NCBI RefSeq assembly: GCF_014652275.1
Contig: NZ_BMYM01000001.1
Span: 1,550,001 to 1,614,000 of the forward strand
Source of the DNA: Parahalioglobus pacificus
GTDB lineage: Bacteria; Pseudomonadota; Gammaproteobacteria; Pseudomonadales; Halieaceae
Direction: 5' to 3'
DNA: 64,000 nucleotides
The translations under genes were made by a program, and so were the position numbers. Of the stretch, positions 1 to 12,761 are shown one piece after another. Within the stretch, counting starts at the first letter, position 1, and each line of letters opens with the position of its first letter. Below the pieces are notes generated by a model. That model was not told the DNA's origin, ran no database searches, and saw only the letters and a list, made by a program, of their open reading frames with translations.

Positions 1-3000
1 CTGCTATTGCCGCCCCCATTGCCGATTGATTGCGCAAGCAGTCCGTGCGATCCGGCGCCGAAGGTCTGCACCGTACCCACCGACGCAACGCTCGCTTCTC
101 CACCGATACCGCCTGAGCCACCTGTTCTACCTACGGTGACTCCAATTTTGCCGGCATCCGCTTTTGCATAGGCGATATCCAAGCCCGTATTACCACCGCC
201 ACCACCAATTGACTGCGCTGCGACTCCATAAGAGTCGCGTCCTGATGTGGAGACGTTACCGATGTTGGTGACACTGGCTCTGCCGCCGTCGCCTCCATCC
301 CCAGTCTTTCCTCCAACACCGATACTAAGAGCACGGTTTTGATTGACGTTATCATCGCCATCGGCACTGCGACCGGCGTAAGTAAGCGCGATGTTCAGAT
401 GCGCATTTCCGCCCCCATCCCCAATGGATTGTGCCAGTAGGCCGTGAGAGTCATCTCCTCTTGTTATCACATCACTTACGTTGCGAACGGCAGCGGAGTT
501 ACCCGAGCTTGACGTGCCGCCGCTGCCCCCAACTGCGATATTGACTGCAAACGCCTCTTCATCCTGCGCATCGCTGCCAACGTTGGTGTAACCTATGTTG
601 AGGTTGGCGCCCGAATCACCGCCACCTCCGCCAATGCTGGATGCGACAATGCCACTTGCACCATCGCCATCAGTCTGGACTTTTCCTGCGTCGACGACCT
701 CGCTACCACGAACAATTTCTACAGCGCCGGCTGCACCACCGCCGCCGCCGCTACCCCCTACGCCGATGCTGACGGGCGAGCTTTTCTCGGTGGCCAAGCC
801 TGTAAAATTCAGACCACCTACGCCACCGCCACCGCCAATGCTTTGGGCGAGAATTCCGCCAGAGCCGGCGCCTTGCGTTGCTATTGATCCGACCTGACTC
901 ACTCGAACCGACTGTGCATTTGCCGCATCACCGCCAGTGCCACCAACGCCCGCTATGATTGAGATATCGGTGACTCCACCCTGCGCATCGTCATCCGCTA
1001 ATTCTGCTTGCACTCCTATGTTGGTTGCGCCGGTGCCGCCACCCCCGCCGACACTTTGGGCTAAGACACCGTAGGTGGATGAACCTTGAGTAATGATGCT
1101 CCCCTCATGATCGACAGTGACACTATCCGAACTGGCCCCGGAGCCTCCTGCACCGCCCACGCCAATATTTATAGAGGGAAAAAGAGATCCAGATTCTTTG
1201 GCGGCAACAAAACCGGCTGACACATTAACGCCACCATTACCGCCGCCTCCGCCTATACTCTGAGCGAGGATTCCGGCGGCGATATTTGCTTCTTTGGTGT
1301 CACTATTGCGCACATCAATATTTGCCGTGCTAGTAACGTCAACACTGCCCGCTCGCCCCGCGTCGCCCGCAGAGCCTCCGACTCCAATCAACAAAGAGGC
1401 GTCAGGGGTCACCGACCCAGACACGTTAACCGCTCCGTTGCCGCCACCACCACCAATGCTTTGTGCCAAGACCCCTGATTGAGAGATGCCACCGGCGTAC
1501 AGGTATTTACCGATGAGGTCGACAGTTACAGACTTCGCATCGCCACCATCTCCGCCAAAACCACCGACACCAAGTATAGCGCCCAAAGAATCCGTGGAGT
1601 CAGTAGAGCCAAGAGCGAGATTACCACCGACGTTGACACCACCGAGGCCACCGCCGCCGCCAATGCTTTGCGCGATGAGTCCACTGCCGCCTAGGTCGCC
1701 GGGAGTTGGATTGATGGGATTCAGGTGAAAGCTTTCAGCCGTGAAGATGGAGCCCCGATAAGTAACATCCACTGCGCCAGCGTTACCCGCGTTTCCGCCG
1801 AAGCCGCCTACACCCAAAGCAAACGCTTTCTGGTTGGTGCTATCACCAAAATTATTGACCGAGACGTTGCCTTGAACATTCACTCCGCCTTGGCCACCGC
1901 CGCCACCAACAGACTGAACGACCACGGCATGCGAGTTGGAACCAACCGTTTGCGAATCCCCCGTCGCTTCAACTAACACGTCGCCGGAGTTACCGGCACT
2001 GCCCGCAAAGCCACCGACGCCGACACTAACGGACGCGCCGTCATCCTTTACAACATTGAGTGAGCCCCCAAGGTTAATCGCGCCGTTACCTCCGCCGCCA
2101 CCTAAGCTCTGGGCCAAGATGGCAGAGGAATCATTGCCTTGCGTTGAGACATAACCCTTCGATTTCAGGGTGACTTGGCCTGAGTTACCACCCGAAGCAC
2201 CAAAGCCTCCCACTCCAACACCCACGCTGGCGCCGGAGGTTTCAGTGAAGTTTACCTGGCCAGATACATTGAGGCCGCCGTTACCACCACCACCGGCGAC
2301 TGACTGTGCAACCACACCTGAAGAGCGGTCTCCGCCAGTTTCTATAAAGGATTCCGGCGACATCATGTTTACCAAACTCGTGACGCTGCCAGCATCGCCT
2401 CCCTCGCCACCAAAGCCACCTACACCAACACCTACAGCAGCGCCTTTTCCGCCGGTATTGATATTGACTGCACCGTTTACGTTCAGGCCTCCGTTACCGC
2501 CACCTCCACCAATCGTTTGAGCCAAAATACCCGCCGAATCGTCCGATTCGGTTACTATCAGGCCTTCATAACGATTGGTGACGTTACCACCATCTCCAGC
2601 ACCGCCACCCATGCCGCCTACACCAACCGCAAGCGAGCCCGTCGCCGTTGCACTCTCCTTCATTGTGACATTTAATGAACCGGTACCGTTGCCGCCGCCA
2701 TTGCCACCACCACCGCCAACGCTCTGTGCGAGAACAGCAATTGAGTTGCTCATCCGAGTCCAGATATTGCCGTTAACGGTATTGTCAACTTCACCGCCGC
2801 TGCCACCGCCGCTACCGACACCACCAACGCCAACGCCGACACTGCCGCCTTGTTCACTTCCAATTGCGACCGTTCCTGTGACGTTAACGCCACCGTTACC
2901 GCCCCCGCCGCCAATCGACTGAGCAACTACCGCCGCTGAACCTTTACCTTGCGTAGAGACAGCCCCCTCTTGACGGTTGACGACCTTTCCGCCGTCTCCG

Positions 3001-6000
3001 CCACCGTTACCACTGCCTCCGACACCTATCCCTAATACGCCACCTGTCTTACTGGCTACGTTCAGACCCAGATTGACGTTGGTACCACCATTGCCACCAC
3101 CGCCACCGACTGATTGCGCCAAGACGCCCCCAGCGCCGTCTCCGCGAGTAATTACATCTCCAGTTACTGTGTTGGTGACCGCTTGACCATTACTGGCCGA
3201 ACCGCCGCTACCACCAACACCAACACCCACAGTTCCTCCATTGTTTTGAGTCAAGCCCACGGTACCAGCAACGTTCACAGCACCACTGCCGCCGCCGCCA
3301 CCAATCGACTGGGCGATAACGCCTGCGGCATTCAAGCCGCTCGTAGTTACGTTACCCGACACTCTATTTTGGACAGCGCCCGTCGAACCGCCGGCACCAC
3401 CGCGGCCGCCAATACCGATACCCAAAGCACCGCCGGATGAAGATGTCGCATTCAGGTCGAGGGTCACATTTACACCTCCATTACCACCGCCTCCACCAAC
3501 GGCTTGTGCGATAACGCCGACAGCACCTTCGCCTACTGTTGACACGTCGCCAGTCACACTGTTGTCGACAGCTCTCGCGCTACCCCCGCCGCCGCCAGTG
3601 CCCCCTATACCGACGCCCACCGCACCACTTTTCCCGCTGGATACCGAAACCGCTCCTGAAACATTGATGGCACCCGAGCCGCCGCCACCGCCAAGACTTT
3701 GCGCGACAACACCGCCCGCGTTATCACCTAGGGTTGCAACGTCGCCCTCCACTGTGTTGAGGACAGTTTCCGCGTCGCCGCCAGTGCCGCCTGAGCCGCC
3801 AACACCGACAGACAGCGCACCGATTCCATTACCAAACAGGCTCAAGCCCGCGGCAACCGAAATACCTCCAGTGCCGCCGCCGCCGCCAACACTTTGTGCC
3901 AGTACCGCTGTGGCGTTGTCACCGAGAGTTGAAACGTCGCCAACAACACCACTGTCGACTTTAAAACCGTCGCCACCACCGGCGCCGTTACCGCCCACGC
4001 CGATGGCAGCAGAAAGTTTAGAACTGGCGGCGATGGCAGCGCTCACGCTGACGGCACCGTTGCCGCCACCGCCACCAATTGACTGAGCGACAATGCCGCC
4101 GGCGTCATCGCCCCTGGTGACTACGTTGCCTTGCACCCGATTAGTCACCAGAGATGCATCGGCACCCGCGCCGCCACTGCCGCCTACTCCGACGCCAATA
4201 CTGCCGGATGCAGATTCTGCAAAGCTAAGTGCGCCTGAAACACTAATACCGCCGTTACCGCCGCCTCCGCCGATAGACTGAGCCAAAACTCCAATTGATC
4301 CGTGGCCAAAGATTTCATCTTTTACTGCGGCTGCATAATCTGGGCCAATGAATTTGCCGGTCGAAACATCACCGATAACGGTGTTATCGACTGTACCGCC
4401 GACGCCGCCCAGACCACCTGCGCCGCCCACTCCGATGGCAACCCCGCCACCGGCTTTCGCGATCGTCAGGGCACCGGCGACAGACAAACCGCCGTTACCA
4501 CCACCGCCGCCGATAGACTGGGCGACCACACCCGATGCCCGGTTACCAAGTGTCGTCGTGTTGCCTTCAATACGCTGGACAACCTTGCCAGCGTTATCGC
4601 CGGTACCACCCGCGCCACCAACACCAACGGCAACCGAGCCTGCGCCCTGTCCCGCGAGCGATACATCACCCGCGACTGAGATGCCGCCATTACCGCCGCC
4701 TCCGCCGACCGACTGCGCAAGGACGCCGGTAGAACCTTCACCGAAGTATTGGTCGTTCTCAAACCGGCCGGTTATTACATCGCCGGTGACTACGTTTGAA
4801 ACGTTCCCACCTGCGCCGCCTCCGCCACCGGTACCACCCACTGAGATACCGACAGACCCGGTCCCGGTGCCGCCGAGGGCAACGAACCCACCGACGGACA
4901 GACCGCCATTACCGCCGCCGCCGCCGACTGATTGGGCGATCACGCCCTCAGAACTATCACCGAAGGTTCGGACATTGCCGGTCACTGCATTATCAATAGT
5001 GCCGCCGGCATCAGCGCCGTTACCGCCGCTGCCGCCTACACCGATAGCAACGCCACCACTGCCAGTACCCGTCCCCGTGAAGCCCGCCGAAACTGAAATA
5101 CCGCCGTTACCGCCGCCACCAGAAATCGACTGGGCGAGCACGCCGGTTGCGTCGTCGCCCCTAGTTTCTACATTGCCCTCAAGCAGCGAGGTCACGGAAC
5201 CAGAGGCGCCACCAGCACCGCCTGAGCCACCAACGCCGATAGACGCGCCGCCAGCACCCGTGCCGGCAAATGTGCCAGTCGATGCAACGTTCAACCCACC
5301 GTTGCCGCCGCCACCGCCAACGCTTTGCACCACAAGGCCGCCAGAACCCCTGCCCTCTGTCAAAATGTTTTTGTACATGCGATTAACGACATCACCGGCA
5401 TCACCACCGCTACCACCGGTGCCGCCTATACCAATGGCCAATGCACCCGCGCCAGTGCCACCGCCTGCAACAGCAACCGAAACATTCATGCCTCCGTTAC
5501 CACCACCACCACCAACGGACTGCACGGTGACACCCGTGGAATCGTCGCCGACTGTCTGCACATAGGAGCGGATCTCGGTTTCGACGTCACGGCCATCGCC
5601 TGCACCACTTCCGCTGCCACCGAGTCCTACCGTGAGGCCACCGGCGCCTGTTCCAGCGCCCGAGAAGTTTGCAGTGACATTAAAGCCGCCGTTACCGCCG
5701 CCGCCACCAACGCTTTGCGCTACGATGCCAGAGGAGTTTTCACCCAGGGTCGTCACGGTACCTGATGTACTCAGGGACACACCTCTATCAACGTTTTCTG
5801 CCCCGCCCAAACCGCCGCCAGAGCCCTTCCCGCCGAGGCCGACGTCAATCGCACCAGCACCGATGCCTGCGACGTTGACAGAAGCGACAACCGAGCCACC
5901 CCCGTTACCGCCACCGCCACCAACGGCCTGGGCAAGAATACCTGTAGAGTTCAGGCTTCGAGTGATAAGATCACCGATGTAGGTTGCTATTACCTCGTCG

Positions 6001-6885
6001 GCGTTGCCGCCCGCCTGGCCGTTGCCGCCGACACCCACATTGATGCTGCCTGCGCCTACGGAGCCGCCAGCGAAACTAGCGCCGATTGCCGTGCCACCGC
6101 TACCGCCGCCACCACCGACGGCCTGAACCACAAGTCCGTCCGAGTCATTACCATCGGTATCGATATTTGCCGCGACATTAGCTTCTACCCTGCCAGCGCG
6201 ACCACCAGAACCCCCGCTACCACCCAGGCTTACACCCAGGACGCCACTGCCTGTTCCTGCTGCAGCGCCAACGGAGGCCGTCATGCCGCCATTGCCGCCG
6301 CCACCGCCAACGCTTTGTATCAGCGCGCCGTCTGCGAGATCGCCGCCGGTTGAGATGGCACCACTAAAGTCAACAAAGACTTCGCCCCCATCACCACCGC
6401 CTGATCCATCTCCTCCAACAGATACTGACGCTGCACCGCTTGCCCCTGGGCTCAATGCAACTGATGAAGCGACCGACAGCCCTCCATTGCCGCCACCGCC
6501 GCCCACACTTTGAGCGAGTAGTCCTCCAGATTGGTCTCCCGAACTTATGATATAAAGTTCCGCACCATCAACTGTAACGCGGCCTGCATCGTTACCATCT
6601 CCCCCTGCGCCACCCAAACTAACGGAGCCGGAGAACCCTACGGGCGGCCCTGCCGCCAGCGCGCCGGAAACGCTCATCCCGCCATTTCCACCGCCGCCGC
6701 CTACGCTTTGCAAAATTATGCCCGCGGCGAGCTCGCCTTCTGTTTGTACCGTACTAGCGCCACTCAATGAAACGTCACCACCAACACCTCCACTGGCGGC
6801 ATCACCTCCTACAGCCACCGATGCACTCCCCACTGCACCAACAGAAACTGCATAGGCTGCGCCACCGTTACCACCGCCGCCGCCA
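1..6885 (-). repeat. Tandem long repeat units, about 195-205 bp (65 or more residues), of the giant gene
   Basis: Unit starts measured in part of this block are 6885, 6702, 6504, 6309, 6117, 5922, 5709, 5514 and 5319. The commonest spacing is 195 bp; others are 183, 192, 198 and 213. Compared with the short units, each carries an extra segment after the Gly-rich core that reads roughly V-S-G-x-L-x-x-A, followed by G-I-G-V-G-V-G-G. By eye about 34 such units lie between base 1 and 6,885, and the block continues past the left edge. Confidence 0.75.
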
Positions 6886-9800
6886 ACAGACTGCGCGAAG
6901 ACACCAGTTGATCTGTCATCACGTGTGTGTATGAGCGATTCTGTATTTGCTGTTAGCGCCTCGGGGTCATGGCCGAGCTTTACTTCGACCTCACCGCCTT
7001 TACTGCCGCGACCACCGTTACCGCCTATTCCCAAACTGAGGAAGGCAGAGCCTGAATAGGCTGAACCACCATTGCCGCCGCCGCCACCAACACTCTGTGC
7101 AAAAATGCCGCGAGATTCTTCACCGTAAGTATTAATTGCGCCGTTACTTACGATTGTGACTTTATCGGCATTATTGCCTGACGCGTTGTTCGCACTGCCA
7201 CCAATTGAAATTGGACCGCCCGCATCACCAGCGTTGCCGCCGCCTCCGCCGATAGACTGAGCGAAAATACCATCCGACTTTAGACCGCCCGTGGTGATGT
7301 TAGCCGTGTTCTCGACCGTCACAGCACCGCTACTGCCGCCCTGATCCGAGGAACCGCCGATAGCAACCAGACCGCCGCCGGTGCCGGCGTTACCGCCGCC
7401 TCCTGCGATACTCTGGGCGACAATGCCCTGTGAGTAGTCGCCGCGTGTCACAATATTGTCACCGCTGTTAACCACGACGTCGCCGCTGGTGCCGCCGGAA
7501 TCACTGGAACCCCCAAGGCCGATCAGACCACCACCGGTACCGGCGTTACCGCCACCGCTACCGATGCTCTGCGCGAAAATACCTCTCGATTCGTCACCGT
7601 AGGTGTCGATCGTGCCTGTGCTGTTGACCGTTACGTTGTCGCCGTTGCCGCCGCGGGAGCCGCCGCCCGCCAGACTCACGAGACCACCCGCACCAGCGCC
7701 GCTGCCACCTCCGCCACCGATGCTCTGGGCAAAAATACCGCTGGAATTGTCGTATCGTGCCGTCAGGTTGCCACTGTTGGTGATGCTAACTGCGCCTGCG
7801 TTACCTGAGCCGCCGCCGCTGGCTCCGAGAGCCACAACGCCACCCGACCCCGCGCCCGCACCGCCGCTGCCACCAATGCTCTGCACGAAGATCGCATCGG
7901 CGCCAGTTTTACCACTGGTGCTGCTGGTGCCCGTTGATATATTGCCTGTGTTCACCACGGTCACATCGCCAGCATCGCCACTACCGCCGCCATTACCGCC
8001 CAGCGCCACGAGGCCGCCGCTACCGGCACCGCTACCGCCACCGCCACCAATACTCTGGGCGAAAATGCCCTGCGCTTGGTCGCCTTGTGTGGTTAGGTCT
8101 CCATTATTGGTGACTGATACCAGTTTGCCTTCACCAGCACCCCCGGCGGCACCACCCAGGCCAACCACACCACCGGAACCAGCACCATTACCGCCACCAC
8201 CGCCAATACTTTGCGCGAGAATAGCCGTTGAGTAATCGCCTCGCGTTGTGATGGTGGCTGCCGAGCCCGTATTGGACACGCGAACTTCACCACCATCGCC
8301 AGAGCCGCCTCCGGAACCACCGAGTGCCACCAGGCCGCCCGCACCGGAGCCAGAGCCACCACCGCCGCCCACGCTCTGCGCGAACAGGCCGTAGGAGTAG
8401 TCATACCATGTTGACAACGCACCCGTGTTGGTAACAGTCACATTGCCGGCGTTTCCGCCGCCACCGCCAGAGGGTGCAATAGCGACCAGACCACCCGCGC
8501 CAGCACTGCTACCGCCGCCGCCACCAATACTTTGAGCAAAAATAGCGTCCGCATCCGTGCCGCTACCTGTTTGGGTCCCTGTTGAGATATTGCCCGTATT
8601 ATCGACGGTAACCGCACCACCATTACCGCCACCCGAACCGCCGCCGCCGATGGCGACGAGACCACCACCGCCGGCGCCACTGCCTCCGCCACCGCCAATG
8701 GACTGGGCAAAAACACCGCGGGACAAGGTGCCGCGCGTGGCGATGTCGTCATAACTTTCCACACGAACCGTGCCACCGGTGCCTGCGCCACCACCAGAGC
8801 CACTGCTGGCCACCAAGCCGCCGGAGGGTGCACCGGTACCACCACCGCCACCGACGCTCTGGGCAAACATCCCGTGGCTTTTCTCTCCGTAAGTATCAAT
8901 CTTACCGCCGACGTTGTTGATCATAGTGACGGTACTGCCGTTACCCGCACCACCACCGCTGCCACCCAGAGCCACCAGGCCGCCAGAGCCGCCGCCTGAG
9001 CCACCGCCACCACCGATGCTTTGTGCTTTTATCCCTGCAGAATCATCGAAATAAGTGGTCAATGCGCCGGAATTGGTAACGCTTACCGTACCACCGGCAC
9101 CACCGCCCTTACCGCTACTGGAACTGGCAACCAAACCACCAGTGGTCGCTCCACTGCCGCCGCCACCGCCAATACTTTGGGCAAAGATTGCATCGGATCC
9201 AGTACCCGACTGATTGAAGAGCCCTGTGGTGATGCTGCCGCGGTTGGTAATGGTCACAGTATTGCCGTCACCGCCGCCACTGCCCGAGCCGCCCAGGGCA
9301 ACAAGACCACCGGCGCTACCGCCGGAACCGCCGCCGCCGCCAATGCTCTGGGCGAAAATACCGCGGGAATAGCTCCCCTCGGTCTTAAGATTGCCCTCGT
9401 TATCCACGGTGACCGTACCGGGTGTGCCGGCGCCGCCGCCACCACCAGAATCGCCAACGATACCGCCCGCACCGCCACCGGTGCCGCCACCGCCGCCTAT
9501 GCTGGTCGCATAGATGGCATCGGCATAGTTGCCGCGCGTCGTGATATTTCCATCGTTATCGACAGTGACATTGCTGCCGTTGCCGCCTCCACCGCCGCTG
9601 CCGGCAAGACCCACAAGTCCACCCGCGCCGCCGCCGGAGCCTCCGCCGCCACCGATAGACTGAGCCAGAATGCCGCGACTGTCGTCGCCGGAAGTGTTAA
9701 TCGTGCCTGAGTTCTCAACATCCACGCGGCCACCATTACCGCCGCCGGATGCGTTGCCACCAGAGGCCACCAGGCCTCCCGCCGAGCCGGCATCACCGCC

Positions 9801-11030
9801 GGTACCGCCAATACTTTGCGCCAGAATGCCGTTAGCCGACTCGCCAATAGTGGTCAGATCACCATTATTGTCAATCAGTACACGGCCGCCGTTACCGCCG
9901 ACAGCGCCGTTGCCGGCAGAGCCCACGATGCCCCAGCTTCCGCCGCCCGAGCCAGCACCACCGCCACTGCTGAAGCCTCGAATGGCATGGCTGCCGTCGC
10001 CGGCAGTGCCAATGTCGCCATTATTAGTTGCATTGACAAAGCCGCCGTCGCGTGCTTCGCCGCCAGCGCCACCGCCGCCGAGAATATAACCCTCGCCGCC
10101 CGCACCCGCATTTCCACTGCGGCTGAAGATGTAATAACCCACAGCATCCTCGCCGCCTGTAGCAACATCGACGTTGTTGGTCGTATTTACGTTCCCGCCG
10201 GCGCCACCATCACCGCCTGGCAAGGCGTCGAAGTTGCTGTAGGCGTTTCCGCCTTTGCCGCCGTTACCGCCCTGGCTGCCAACGGTAATCCCAGCAGCAC
10301 CATCAGCAGTGCTGGTGATCTCGCCGTGAGAGGCTAGGATCTCGCGGTCAAACTTGCTGGGGGCATCGCCATCCCCACCGGCTGTGCCGCCGTATCCAAT
10401 AACGGCATCTCCAAGCCAGGGAACGCTGACCTCTATGCCGTAGCCGTCGTTGCCGGCGTCCCCACTGGCGCCGCGCTTAACCTCGTTAATCACGCCAGCT
10501 GTGGACTGAGGCGGCGTCACCTCGGCCTCACCAGCGGCGCCTTGCGCATCGCTGGGAAGACCGAGATCTATCTTGTCCGGAGCAACCACAGGTTCAGAAA
10601 CAATGGCAGGAGGGGGATCGTCATCGTTTTGCAGCTGGATATTGATGGTATCGACAAAGCCATTATCGTTACTGTCCTCGACGCTGATCACCTTGTAGGT
10701 GCCATCGGGACGTTCCAGCAGGTCGTCTACCATTGATTGTGTGAGGATCAGACTGCCATCTCTGGTAATAACATAGAGCGTATCGCCAGCCCCGTTGTCC
10801 TCGGAGGTAATGACTTGAAGCACTTCCTGATCGGTGCCGGTCAGGGGGTTAGTGACGAAATCGCCTGGTTGGGTGGAGGTCGTTGGAAGTGCCGCGTTGG
10901 CGAGTGGGGATAGCGTGAGTGCCATCGCACAGACGAGGCCGACGAATGTCGACCCTCCGCGCAAGTGGTGCTCATCTCTCAACGACAATACAGACAGGCC
11001 TCGATCACGCAATTGCGTAAAAATCGACAT
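1..11030 (-). CDS. Giant secreted Gly-rich QSIGGGGG-repeat protein (autotransporter/adhesin-like), 3' end outside window
   Basis: One frame is open from the ATG at 11028-11030 to base 1 (about 3,676 codons). I found no stop at any sampled point, and the frame register is identical at 9.8, 8.5, 5.9, 3.1, 0.84 kb and at the left edge. A GGAG lies 8 nt before the ATG. Residues 1-46 form a signal peptide: a polar lead of about 25 residues, a hydrophobic core (about 28-42) and a cleavage site after SPLANA. The long polar lead recalls extended signal peptides of autotransporters. Residues 119-127 (DSNDNGFVD) resemble a calcium-binding DxDxDG loop. From residue 405 there are about 53 units, each with A-Q-S-(I/V)-G-G-G-G-G followed by Gly/Asn/Ser-rich sequence and a G-I-x-A lead-in. 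Proteins with this repeat are known as large type V-secreted surface proteins. The expected C-terminal beta-barrel would lie left of base 1 and is not seen. Surface adhesion or matrix function is inferred. Confidence 0.85.
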   Translation of the reverse strand, partial: MSIFTQLRDRGLSVLSLRDEHHLRGGSTFVGLVCAMALTLSPLANAALPTTSTQPGDFVTNPLTGTDQEVLQVITSEDNGAGDTLYVITRDGSLILTQSMVDDLLERPDGTYKVISVEDSNDNGFVDTINIQLQNDDDPPPAIVSEPVVAPDKIDLGLPSDAQGAAGEAEVTPPQSTAGVINEVKRGASGDAGNDGYGIEVSVPWLGDAVIGYGGTAGGDGDAPSKFDREILASHGEITSTADGAAGITVGSQGGNGGKGGNAYSNFDALPGGDGGAGGNVNTTNNVDVATGGEDAVGYYIFSRSGNAGAGGEGYILGGGGAGGEARDGGFVNATNNGDIGTAGDGSHAIRGFSSGGGAGSGGGSWGIVGSAGNGAVGGNGGRVLIDNNGDLTTIGESANGILAQSIGGTGGDAGSAGGLVASGGNASGGGNGGRVDVENSGTINTSGDDSRGILAQSIGGGGGSGGGAGGLVGLAGSGGGGGNGSNVTVDNDGNITTRGNYADAIYATSIGGGGGTGGGAGGIVGDSGGGGGAGTPGTVTVDNEGNLKTEGSYSRGIFAQSIGGGGGSGGSAGGLVALGGSGSGGGDGNTVTITNRGSITTGLFNQSGTGSDAIFAQSIGGGGGSGATTGGLVASSSSGKGGGAGGTVSVTNSGALTTYFDDSAGIKAQSIGGGGGSGGGSGGLVALGGSGGGAGNGSTVTMINNVGGKIDTYGEKSHGMFAQSVGGGGGTGAPSGGLVASSGSGGGAGTGGTVRVESYDDIATRGTLSRGVFAQSIGGGGGSGAGGGGLVAIGGGGSGGGNGGAVTVDNTGNISTGTQTGSGTDADAIFAQSIGGGGGSSAGAGGLVAIAPSGGGGGNAGNVTVTNTGALSTWYDYSYGLFAQSVGGGGGSGSGAGGLVALGGSGGGSGDGGEVRVSNTGSAATITTRGDYSTAILAQSIGGGGGNGAGSGGVVGLGGAAGGAGEGKLVSVTNNGDLTTQGDQAQGIFAQSIGGGGGSGAGSGGLVALGGNGGGSGDAGDVTVVNTGNISTGTSSTSGKTGADAIFVQSIGGSGGAGAGSGGVVALGASGGGSGNAGAVSITNSGNLTARYDNSSGIFAQSIGGGGGSGAGAGGLVSLAGGGSRGGNGDNVTVNSTGTIDTYGDESRGIFAQSIGSGGGNAGTGGGLIGLGGSSDSGGTSGDVVVNSGDNIVTRGDYSQGIVAQSIAGGGGNAGTGGGLVAIGGSSDQGGSSGAVTVENTANITTGGLKSDGIFAQSIGGGGGNAGDAGGPISIGGSANNASGNNADKVTIVSNGAINTYGEESRGIFAQSVGGGGGNGGSAYSGSAFLSLGIGGNGGRGSKGGEVEVKLGHDPEALTANTESLIHTRDDRSTGVFAQSVGGGGGNGGAAYAVSVGAVGSASVAVGGDAASGGVGGDVSLSGASTVQTEGELAAGIILQSVGGGGGNGGMSVSGALAAGPPVGFSGSVSLGGAGGDGNDAGRVTVDGAELYIISSGDQSGGLLAQSVGGGGGNGGLSVASSVALSPGASGAASVSVGGDGSGGGDGGEVFVDFSGAISTGGDLADGALIQSVGGGGGNGGMTASVGAAAGTGSGVLGVSLGGSGGSGGRAGRVEANVAANIDTDGNDSDGLVVQAVGGGGGSGGTAIGASFAGGSVGAGSINVGVGGNGQAGGNADEVIATYIGDLITRSLNSTGILAQAVGGGGGNGGGSVVASVNVAGIGAGAIDVGLGGKGSGGGLGGAENVDRGVSLSTSGTVTTLGENSSGIVAQSVGGGGGNGGFNVTANFSGAGTGAGGLTVGLGGSGSGAGDGRDVETEIRSYVQTVGDDSTGVTVQSVGGGGGNGGMNVSVAVAGGGTGAGALAIGIGGTGGSGGDAGDVVNRMYKNILTEGRGSGGLVVQSVGGGGGNGGLNVASTGTFAGTGAGGASIGVGGSGGAGGASGSVTSLLEGNVETRGDDATGVLAQSISGGGGNGGISVSAGFTGTGTGSGGVAIGVGGSGGNGADAGGTIDNAVTGNVRTFGDSSEGVIAQSVGGGGGNGGLSVGGFVALGGTGTGSVGISVGGTGGGGGAGGNVSNVVTGDVITGRFENDQYFGEGSTGVLAQSVGGGGGNGGISVAGDVSLAGQGAGSVAVGVGGAGGTGDNAGKVVQRIEGNTTTLGNRASGVVAQSIGGGGGNGGLSVAGALTIAKAGGGVAIGVGGAGGLGGVGGTVDNTVIGDVSTGKFIGPDYAAAVKDEIFGHGSIGVLAQSIGGGGGNGGISVSGALSFAESASGSIGVGVGGSGGAGADASLVTNRVQGNVVTRGDDAGGIVAQSIGGGGGNGAVSVSAAIAASSKLSAAIGVGGNGAGGGDGFKVDSGVVGDVSTLGDNATAVLAQSVGGGGGTGGISVAAGLSLFGNGIGALSVGVGGSGGTGGDAETVLNTVEGDVATLGDNAGGVVAQSLGGGGGSGAINVSGAVSVSSGKSGAVGVGIGGTGGGGGSARAVDNSVTGDVSTVGEGAVGVIAQAVGGGGGNGGVNVTLDLNATSSSGGALGIGIGGRGGAGGSTGAVQNRVSGNVTTSGLNAAGVIAQSIGGGGGSGAVNVAGTVGLTQNNGGTVGVGVGGSGGSASNGQAVTNTVTGDVITRGDGAGGVLAQSVGGGGGNGGTNVNLGLNVASKTGGVLGIGVGGSGNGGGDGGKVVNRQEGAVSTQGKGSAAVVAQSIGGGGGNGGVNVTGTVAIGSEQGGSVGVGVGGVGSGGGSGGEVDNTVNGNIWTRMSNSIAVLAQSVGGGGGNGGGNGTGSLNVTMKESATATGSLAVGVGGMGGGAGDGGNVTNRYEGLIVTESDDSAGILAQTIGGGGGNGGLNVNGAVNINTGGKGAAVGVGVGGFGGEGGDAGSVTSLVNMMSPESFIETGGDRSSGVVAQSVAGGGGNGGLNVSGQVNFTETSGASVGVGVGGFGASGGNSGQVTLKSKGYVSTQGNDSSAILAQSLGGGGGNGAINLGGSLNVVKDDGASVSVGVGGFAGSAGNSGDVLVEATGDSQTVGSNSHAVVVQSVGGGGGQGGVNVQGNVSVNNFGDSTNQKAFALGVGGFGGNAGNAGAVDVTYRGSIFTAESFHLNPINPTPGDLGGSGLIAQSIGGGGGLGGVNVGGNLALGSTDSTDSLGAILGVGGFGGDGGDAKSVTVDLIGKYLYAGGISQSGVLAQSIGGGGGNGAVNVSGSVTPDASLLIGVGGSAGDAGRAGSVDVTSTANIDVRNSDTKEANIAAGILAQSIGGGGGNGGVNVSAGFVAAKESGSLFPSINIGVGGAGGSGASSDSVTVDHEGSIITQGSSTYGVLAQSVGGGGGTGATNIGVQAELADDDAQGGVTDISIIAGVGGTGGDAANAQSVRVSQVGSIATQGAGSGGILAQSIGGGGGVGGLNFTGLATEKSSPVSIGVGGSGGGGGAAGAVEIVRGSEVVDAGKVQTDGDGASGIVASSIGGGGGDSGANLNIGYTNVGSDAQDEEAFAVNIAVGGSGGTSSSGNSAAVRNVSDVITRGDDSHGLLAQSIGDGGGNAHLNIALTYAGRSADGDDNVNQNRALSIGVGGKTGDGGDGGRASVTNIGNVSTSGRDSYGVAAQSIGGGGGNTGLDIAYAKADAGKIGVTVGRTGGSGGIGGEASVASVGTVQTFGAGSHGLLAQSIGNGGGNS
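6885..9812 (-). repeat. Tandem short repeat units, mostly 156 bp (52 residues), of the giant gene
   Basis: Measured at the Ile/Val codon of the QSIGG motif, units start at 9810, 9654, 9498, 9342, 9171, 9015, 8853, 8697, 8526, 8370, 8205, 8049, 7875, 7719, 7563, 7407, 7251, 7089 and 6885. Most spacings are exactly 156 bp; others are 162, 165, 171, 174 and finally 204. The units are degenerate at DNA level away from the Gly-rich core, so they look like an old amplification held by selection, not a recent one. Confidence 0.8.
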
Positions 11031-11327: not shown

Positions 11328-11720
11328 TCAGTCGTTACCCACAGCAATCATCGGTGCGACGTAGCCGGGCTGCGGGAAGGTGCCATTCATTTCTCGGGCA
11401 ACCGCGTTTGCTGCTCCGGCAACACTCTGCCCGGGCTGCTGACACTGGGTGTTCCACACATCCAGCATATCGGCGATGAAATGCTTGCTGTGACTGGGGT
11501 CTTCATAGAAAGAGGCAGCGGTCAAAGGGTCTGCCAGCTGTACCGCTCGCTGCATCACCAGAAACTGGCCACCGGCAAATTTCAGATCAGGGTCAGCTTT
11601 TTTCATGGCTTCAATACAGGGGCGATTGAGATCACTCTCTGATAATAAGCCCTGGATATCGCTGGCCTGCGTGCCTGCAGTAAACAGAAGCCCTGCTGCG
11701 AGAATAACTAACGTGTGCAT
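11328..11720 (-). CDS. Small secreted protein of unknown function
   Basis: 130 residues starting at the ATG at 11718-11720. The longer frame upstream is basic and lacks a ribosome site. The start MHTLVILAAGLLFTAGTQAS is a clear signal peptide with cleavage near residue 18, so the mature protein is exported. Two cysteines in the mature chain (in N-R-P-C-I and N-T-Q-C-Q) could form a disulfide. The C-terminus is Gln/Pro/Gly-rich. I do not recognise a family. It lies on the same strand as, and upstream of, the giant repeat gene, separated by about 300 bp that include an inverted repeat. A shared function is possible but unsupported. Confidence 0.6.
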   Translation of the reverse strand: MHTLVILAAGLLFTAGTQASDIQGLLSESDLNRPCIEAMKKADPDLKFAGGQFLVMQRAVQLADPLTAASFYEDPSHSKHFIADMLDVWNTQCQQPGQSVAGAANAVAREMNGTFPQPGYVAPMIAVGND

Positions 11721-12075
11721 ACCTACGCCCTCACGACGTGATTCAGGAAGCCCCATCTTGTGGAAACGGCCGCCCTTTCTAAATTGCTGCCAGCGACAAG
11801 CACTTGGCATTTCACGACGATGTCCGTCGTGCAATTACTCCCCAGTCATTCGCCGTTGCAGCAGAGACTAGCCATTGCTCCAGCCATGACGAAGGGACGC
11901 GAGCCGGCGGGTAACCGCCTCGCCGTGAGAGAGCTTTAGCGCCGGTTAAACGCCAATTCTCTGTCTCAACGGGCGCCAAGATTACAGAGTTGAGTGTTTT
12001 TTATCCAGCCGGAGATAACTTTGCTTGTCTGCACTGAGTTAGGCAGCTTAAGAAGGTCTATCCTCAGATTCACTA
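11721..12075. other. Intergenic gap, no gene seen
   Basis: About 355 bp between the small secreted protein and the tRNA terminator. It presumably contains the promoter for the secreted protein gene on the minus strand, but I see no clear -35/-10 pair. A small GGCGG-GTAA-CCGCC hairpin occurs near 11,910. Short frames here have no ribosome site or recognisable product. Confidence 0.5.
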
Positions 12076-12112: not shown

Positions 12113-12188
12113 TGGTGGAGCTAAGCGGGATCGAACCGCTGACCTCAACACTGCCAGTGTTGCGCTCTCCCAGCTGAGCTATAGCCCC
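12113..12188 (-). tRNA. tRNA-Ala, anticodon GGC
   Basis: 76 nt read on the minus strand, starting GGGGCTATAGCTCAG and ending GCTCCACCA with the CCA encoded. The acceptor stem, D arm, T arm (GGTTCGATCC) and an anticodon stem CAACA/TGTTG around the loop CTGGCAG are all intact, giving anticodon GGC. Apart from the anticodon stem it matches the enterobacterial tRNA-Ala(GGC). It has its own promoter and terminator. Confidence 0.97.
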
Positions 12189-12368: not shown

Positions 12369-12761
12369 GTGATTGGCAAATTCATTCTCTGGCTGTCGGC
12401 TATCGTGTTCACCGCCTATGGCCTGTTTGGCTTCTTCAACCCGGAGATTCCGGCCGGCTTCGCAGGCATCGTCATGAGTAATGGCAATGCTTTTGCTGAG
12501 ATCGGTGCCATGTACGGCGGGCTGCAAACCGGCATTGGGCTTTTCTGTGCGGTGGCCGCCCTCAAACCGGAGCACACCCGATCGGGTCTGCTGGTCTTAT
12601 TACTGGGCATCGGGTTTCTGGCTCTCGGCAGGCTCTACTCGGCCCTCACCGTCGGTGAGGCCCTTACCGCTTACACCTGGGGTGCGCTGGTCTTTGAAGT
12701 GTTTGTCACAGTGCTGGCGGGTTTGGGTCTCAAGCAAAGCCAGGCACCCACCACCCCTTAG
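12369..12761 (+). CDS. DUF4345-like small membrane protein
   Basis: 130 residues from a GTG start at 12369, with a GGAG placed 7 nt upstream. Four hydrophobic helices are evident (about 4-22, 42-65, 72-90 and 98-120). The sequence around [14 protein letters not shown] and the [17 protein letters not shown] stretch match what I know of the DUF4345 family of four-helix inner-membrane proteins, whose function is unknown. Its stop codon overlaps the stop of the convergent sdaA gene by 4 bp. It is probably a monocistronic gene between the tRNA and sdaA. Confidence 0.75.

Follow-up and report, generated by a model that had tools for sequence, protein, structure and literature searches.

Autotransporters of the type Va family reach the periplasm by means of a signal peptide, insert a barrel into the outer membrane and let the passenger emerge and fold on the cell surface. 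Pertactin, Vag8 (7AKV_G) and UpaB belong to this type, and they share with the giant protein studied here a PF03797 barrel and, as predicted for the giant, a beta-helix part, carried in a single chain. The giant differs from these classical members in the two glycine segments predicted for each turn, in a passenger outside known families, and in a passenger length about ten times greater than theirs. In size, it is preceded by BigE, published as the largest autotransporter, with 10,429 residues and, like the giant, a repeat-grown passenger; as far as the accessible part of its description goes (PMC3419190), BigE has in its interior a 69-residue repeat for which beta strands are predicted, and it differs from the giant in being described as a common passenger domain replicated eight times. 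The length that an earlier note on this DNA had singled out as an unusual trait therefore does not distinguish the protein.

A second group of relevant proteins is defined by polyproline-II (PPII) helices rich in glycine. In the Collembola antifreeze proteins 7JJV and 2PNE, glycine-rich PPII helices are packed in two antiparallel layers, an arrangement also predicted by the models presented below, but these are small secreted animal proteins with neither beta-helix nor barrel, and a common origin is not claimed. Glycine runs or GGX triplets also form PPII bundles in bacteria and phages, as in Obg (six helices), in acetophenone carboxylase (about seven) and in phage S16 gp38, none of which is an autotransporter according to the accessible portions of PMC8409303 and PMC13243192. 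The bundles named in these portions come from phage tails, Obg, the carboxylase and snow flea, with predicted cases in mycobacterial and plant proteins, and the largest has 13 helices at most (PMC13243192, PMC8409303); the word "autotransporter" is absent from PMC13243192. In NMR, glycine PPII bundles are marked by a characteristic set of shifts (PMC8409303). In the open-access literature searched, no autotransporter with a PPII bundle was recognized, nor any mention of a QSIGGGGG repeat or of giant glycine-rich autotransporters of this kind. The secretion class and the size class of the protein are thus already known, and the part that would be new is the predicted PPII-bundle passenger.

The window, that is, the whole stretch of 64,000 nucleotides analyzed (C1:1550001-1614000, forward strand), comes from a genome whose 8 contigs add up to 3,418,305 bases. 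The minus-strand frame at 3..11030 extends for 3,676 codons without a stop and runs out of the window at its left edge, as the earlier note had stated. Addition of the adjoining 19 kb of contig revealed a complete gene of 6,347 codons (19,044 bp including the stop, from ATG to TAA), which starts at window coordinate 11030 on the minus strand and ends at C1:1541987, corresponding to window coordinate −8013. The window thus holds its first 3,676 codons (1..11030, minus strand), or 58% of the gene. The frame contains 0 N and 0 internal stops, and a GGAG sequence is located about ten bases 5′ of the ATG. No exact direct repeats of at least 30 bases were present in the gene, the longest being of 25 to 29 bases, and homopolymers of 8 or more bases were also absent from it. 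Since exact repeats stop at this length and glycine codons are mixed (GGC 761, GGT 598, GGA 164, GGG 98), the repeats have drifted apart, which makes a collapse during assembly unlikely.

The length of the frame, its terminal barrel and the conserved orthologous frames place this gene beyond chance and indicate that it is real. As regards the proline-rich antisense frames of which the earlier note had warned, the sense frame is both intact and conserved. A decaying or artefactual repeat gene lacking a product would be in line with the state of one relative, G091, whose copy (L057:5313-18026) is interrupted into frames of 969 and 3,235 codons. The intact 19,044-bp frame, the stop-free orthologous frames of 5,133-7,035 codons and the conserved order of the units argue against decay, to which we assign a practically negligible probability.

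The encoded protein starts with a probable signal peptide (residues 1-47; 10890..11030, minus strand, as for all protein segments in the window). Judged by eye and hydropathy, the hydrophobic stretch at residues 29-43 (mean hydropathy 2.06) and the A-N-A that follows it are signal-like. It is followed by a conserved N-terminal domain with no Pfam name (approximately residues 48-190; 10461..10889), recognized by similarity to orthologues. In a four-sequence database, this domain showed 27-30% identity to its counterparts in G441 and G306 (E 1e-5 and 1e-14) and a weak match to G511 (E 0.013). Lead-in glycine-rich units, delimited by eye, precede the first QSIGGGGG (approximately residues 191-436; 9723..10460). 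The unit map then distinguishes a zone A (residues 437-1291; 7158..9722), with units mostly of 52-58 residues, and a zone B (residue 1292 to about 4640; 3..7157, leaving the window), with units mostly of 59-73 residues, some of which reach 80-85.

The number of repeats depends on the stringency of the pattern. In its strict form, AQSIGGGGG, it was counted 20 times in the window and 23 times over the entire protein, and QS[IVL]GGGGG was counted 39 and 49 times, respectively, from residue 457 to 4644. A looser pattern raised the count in the whole protein to 59, with 46 of them in the window, and the loosest one to 62. The earlier figure of about 53 AQSIGGGGG copies thus overstates the number of strict strings in the window and somewhat exceeds even a loose count.

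To the left of the window, a zone of 31-residue repeats (approximately residues 4690-5780) was recognized by glycine autocorrelation, with values of 0.28 at lag 31 and 0.17 at lag 62 (sd about 0.03). Extension in this direction, suggested in the earlier note as a way to look for an autotransporter barrel, revealed a PF03797 match at the C-terminus, starting at residue 6074 (E 1.8e-29; 103.7 bits vs a cut-off of 26; positions 1-254 of 255). It was the sole PF03797 match found in this genome. The whole protein was searched as six pieces, of which two had about 1 kb of DNA in common; besides the barrel, Pfam gave no family at E 0.01, and no NCBIfam family was assigned to any of the six pieces. 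Within the C-terminal 1,170 residues, PF03797 was the only Pfam match at E 0.01, and no YadA-type anchor (type Vc) was detected there. RTX-type GGxGxDx[LIVF] repeats were also absent from the protein. The C-terminal residue is F, as in 5 of 6 aligned members, with L in G524. Of the three cysteines of the protein, one lies in the probable signal peptide and the other two shortly ahead of the barrel match. This pair is invariant in all six aligned members, and the orthologues contain 10 (G441), 12 (G511) and 6 (G306) cysteines in all. The location of a PF03797 barrel at the end of an intact frame leads to the assignment of the protein to the type Va autotransporters, and supports its export by this route.

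Two stretches of the passenger, together covering 646 of the 6,347 residues, were modeled with AlphaFold2. Model 1 (residues 2359-2683, 325 residues, five zone B units, alignment of 31 rows) reached a mean pLDDT of 81.9 and a pTM of 0.73, with values of 81.4, 62.6, 60.1 and 58.9 in the remaining runs. Model 2 (residues 865-1185, 321 residues, six zone A units, alignment of 18 rows) reached a mean pLDDT of 92.8 and a pTM of 0.88, with the remaining runs ranging from 90.2 to 81.6. In both models the chain is predicted to form a solenoid in which each unit comprises beta strands and two glycine segments.

Foldseek comparison of both models with the PDB gave nothing at E 0.001 (best E 0.05 for model 1 and 0.03 for model 2), and the same was observed for model 2 against viral models. 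The chains ranked by Foldseek were re-examined with VIA-align 2, and the top row for both models was 7JJV, with Z 13.9 and 1.6 Å for model 1 and Z 13.4 and 1.8 Å for model 2, values just above the Z of about 13 below which, as the aligner warns, matches between repeats may mean a common arrangement only. In each case, 125 of the 126 residues of 7JJV were aligned. The aligned ranges of the models (21..297 and 37..270) each cover nine glycine segments of the unit map, and 7JJV has nine PPII helices. For model 1, the next row had a Z of 8.8, and the snow flea protein 2PNE aligned over 81 of 81 residues (Z 6.9, 1.4 Å). For model 2, 7JJV was followed by the autotransporter beta-helices Vag8 (7AKV_G, Z 12.2) and pertactin (Z 11.4), and UpaB had a Z of 10.1. 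Neither Obg nor S16 gp38 appeared among the matches listed for fold comparison, an absence that excludes neither of them. When the PDB was searched by sequence, neither the final 237 residues nor a repeat profile built from 18 units (profile A1) matched a solved structure.

Glycine periodicity was analyzed in the glycine-rich segments of the giant and of three orthologues. The power at period 3 was 1.82 in the giant, 1.83 in G441, 2.09 in G511 and 2.40 in G306, as compared with means of 1.09-1.11 in shuffled sequences, and 0 of 300 shuffles reached the observed value in any of the four proteins, although such shuffles ignore the kinship among units. A smaller excess was found at period 3.5 (1.48-1.61, likewise reached by 0 of 300 shuffles), and none at periods 2, 2.5, 4 and 5. 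The second glycine segment of zone B reads GGX-GGX-GGX, and in the alignments of the modeled stretches the glycines are strictly conserved across distant members. From the models and the glycine period, it follows that a unit is probably one solenoid turn with two PPII segments.

These data have to be weighed against a simpler reading, namely a beta-helix autotransporter of the ordinary kind in which the glycine tracts form flexible loops; the beta part of the models would then be correct, and the bundle a product of the predictor when presented with glycine-rich sequence. The prevalence of beta-helix rows in both fold lists, the lack of Foldseek significance for PPII proteins and the unevenness of model 1, for which three of five runs remained at pLDDT 59-63, are in agreement with flexible loops; on the other hand, model 2 is confident in the glycine segments themselves, with all five runs at 81.6 or higher, and both the glycine period of 3 and the strict conservation of glycines across distant members speak against loops. 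We regard this simpler reading as rather improbable.

The resemblance of the predicted fold to 7JJV also raises the question of an ice-binding or ice-adhering protein working like the springtail antifreeze proteins. In zone A, the first glycine segment is nearly uncharged, with a single charged residue (position 12) at positions 4-15 in 11 units, and it carries Ser and Ala, features similar to those of the flat, small-residue face of the Collembola proteins in the portion of PMC10235112 consulted. In zone B, however, charged residues are frequent at the outward positions 41 and 44 of the second segment (0.38 and 0.50, respectively). Besides, no link of the hosts to ice was noticed, and a common fold proves no function, all of which makes ice binding very unlikely.

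The reading that we favor, and consider fairly probable, is a type Va autotransporter whose beta-helix passenger also carries a continuous two-layer polyglycine-II bundle and is predicted to act as a surface adhesin or spacer. The giant chain would be directed to the periplasm by the signal peptide, the barrel would insert into the outer membrane, and the passenger would be delivered to the surface. There, each unit of 52-73 residues would form one beta-solenoid turn and two polyproline-II (polyglycine-II) segments, and successive units would stack into a continuous two-layer bundle of some 90-120 helices alongside the beta coil. The spacing of parallel beta strands, 4.8 Å, agrees with that of polyglycine II, so that both elements could share one axis. 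A slightly better than even chance can be given to the more specific proposal that the single chain is a composite rod, combining a beta-solenoid with a continuous polyglycine-II lattice in which about a hundred helices form two layers, both on one axis and with a 4.8 Å repeat. If 4.8 Å is counted for each of about 62 G5 units, some 35 plain turns and the few lead-in units, the result would be a stiff rod of about 50 nm. If one unit is indeed one such turn, the protein would be thick rather than long. The giant surface or exported fiber proposed earlier would then hold as regards export, which the barrel supports, while a very long fiber is probably wrong.

If this architecture is correct, it is undescribed in the literature searched and far above the PPII bundles named in the portions consulted (13 helices or fewer); it would explain the purpose of the QSIGGGGG repeats in these autotransporters, and it would imply that polyglycine II can be built at the scale of thousands of residues. 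Furthermore, it would offer a 52-residue repeat, cysteine-free in the giant, for direct production and structure solving, as well as a rule for spotting such passengers, here lacking any Pfam or NCBIfam match.

Comparison of individual units between members revealed that reciprocal best units are nearly collinear. The giant and G441 shared 25 such pairs (rho 0.992), the giant and G511 24 (0.984), the giant and G306 23 (0.988), G441 and G511 18 (0.996), and G441 and G306 22 (0.970). Less than half of the units enter reciprocal pairs, and the stray pairs out of order fall mostly in zones A and B. Within units 42-53 of the giant, 11 of 12 pair in order with units 46-56 of G441. In addition, 32 of the 62 units of the giant have a higher-scoring partner in G441 than anywhere else in their own protein. 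As judged from these sequence comparisons, the units are largely position-specific, with turnover in the N-terminal part, and do not behave as a freely expanding satellite.

These results bear on the function of the protein. Stiff rods forming a surface coat or barrier against grazers, phages or proteases, and binding nothing in particular, would fit a protein that is mostly repeat and has no ligand-binding domain recognizable in Pfam or NCBIfam. Position-specific units and a conserved N-terminal domain are more than a coat needs, and we consider this function unlikely. An adhesin or spacer role is what the predicted location and the lack of a recognized enzyme domain suggest, and the adhesin is somewhat favored by the conservation of both the unit order and the N-terminal domain.

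The distribution of the repeat was examined with profile A1. At E 1e-10, it matched 3 of the 369 genomes searched in the class and 5 of the 398 searched in the phylum, and at E 1e-8 it matched 5 of 140 in the family, with the genome under study included in each of these counts; in this genome, all matches lie within the one giant gene. The open frames of the relatives comprise 7,035 codons in G441 (HTCC2148, a member of the Halieaceae, the family of the genome studied here), 5,613 in G511, 5,133 in G306, 4,258 in G879, 4,094 in G784, 2,384 in G837 and 2,258 in G571, and the repeat frames of G452 and G524 reach contig ends. An alignment of the barrel (A3), searched against genomes of 84,980 species, identified 12 loci, and QSxGGGG repeats were present in the frame of the barrel at all 12 (7 to 42 within the DNA examined). 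These loci are assigned to HTCC2148, Halioglobus, Haliea, two Gammaproteobacteria, Sedimenticola, Emcibacter, an alphaproteobacterium, Caulobacter, Brevundimonas, Akkermansiaceae and Opitutaceae. Eleven of the 12 derive from MAGs, whose contigs can be misbinned, and four (G441, G511, G306 and G524) were already among the profile matches. The family is thus rare, yet it extends to Alphaproteobacteria and, in MAG contigs, to Verrucomicrobiota. In the Caulobacter and Brevundimonas MAGs (L070 and L071), the repeat frame opens with a common stretch and no obvious signal peptide.

More distant barrels were found in 64 records of a plasmid collection, 49 of them from Sinorhizobium, with 24-28% identity in the best 20 of the 64. 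Labrenzia sp. THAF35 (WP_152507896.1) and S. meliloti pSymB-type relatives combine the repeat of the giant with this distant barrel, but they are shorter, with frames of about 2,300 codons vs 6,347; in two of the plasmid records, the Labrenzia frame has 2,312 codons and 14 repeat copies, and the S. meliloti frame 2,356 codons and 16 copies. The Labrenzia member is annotated by NCBI as an autotransporter barrel protein only. Two S. meliloti megaplasmids (L112 and L121) carry such a barrel with no feature in the gene table, which has one feature per whole record, and in L112 the G5 repeat is present besides the barrel.

In a set of 58 genomes made up of relatives and the genome under study, PF03797 was detected in 32, with 29 above the cut-off; among these PF03797-bearing genomes, only the one studied here is one of the five with repeat matches in the family search. 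One genome of the same order, G043, has 18 PF03797 matches, some of them in frames of 3,123 and 2,478 codons, and G037 has one in a 4,004-codon frame. A barrel tree was built that took 8 of 20 other PF03797 loci (L004-L023), 11 being left out because of a stop in the fixed frame and L004 because it was short. In this tree, all 16 barrels that have G5 passengers fall on the same side of a branch supported at only 60/38 (56% of bootstrap trees), so that a single origin for them cannot be claimed. The barrels of the giant, HTCC2148 and Halioglobus form a clade with a support of 100/99.

The gene order in the window is Glu/Gln-tRNA synthetase, serine dehydratase, a small hydrophobic frame on the opposite strand, tRNA-Ala(GGC) (12113..12188, minus strand), a small frame (11328..11720, minus strand) and the giant gene, whose site the tRNA gene adjoins. 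Within the region examined, tRNA-Ala(GGC) was located near serine dehydratase in 4 of 10 relatives (G002, G020, G014 and G015), and in the three with enough sequence (G002, G020 and G014) other frames lie beyond it. The site fits the gain of the giant gene at a variable spot beside a tRNA gene; a Pfam scan of ten neighboring frames revealed no integrase. Around six copies (that of the window and those of G441, G511, G306, G091 and G524), no partner gene was found to accompany the giant: the frames gave one common match, of 60% over 132 residues between G091 and G306, and three more at 29-39%, two of which relate G524 to dehydrogenases of the window. Scans for promoters and terminators upstream of the gene gave numbers near the shuffled level (2 vs 1.0 and 4 vs 1.7). 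The small frame upstream of the giant encodes, from an ATG at 11720, a product of 130 amino acids with a signal-like start that is probably secreted, as predicted from its sequence; a longer version of it (11328-11834) had no Pfam match. The hydrophobic frame adjoining serine dehydratase (12369-12761, plus strand) also encodes 130 amino acids, and similar frames were found near serine dehydratase in G003 (53% identity) and G014 (47%).
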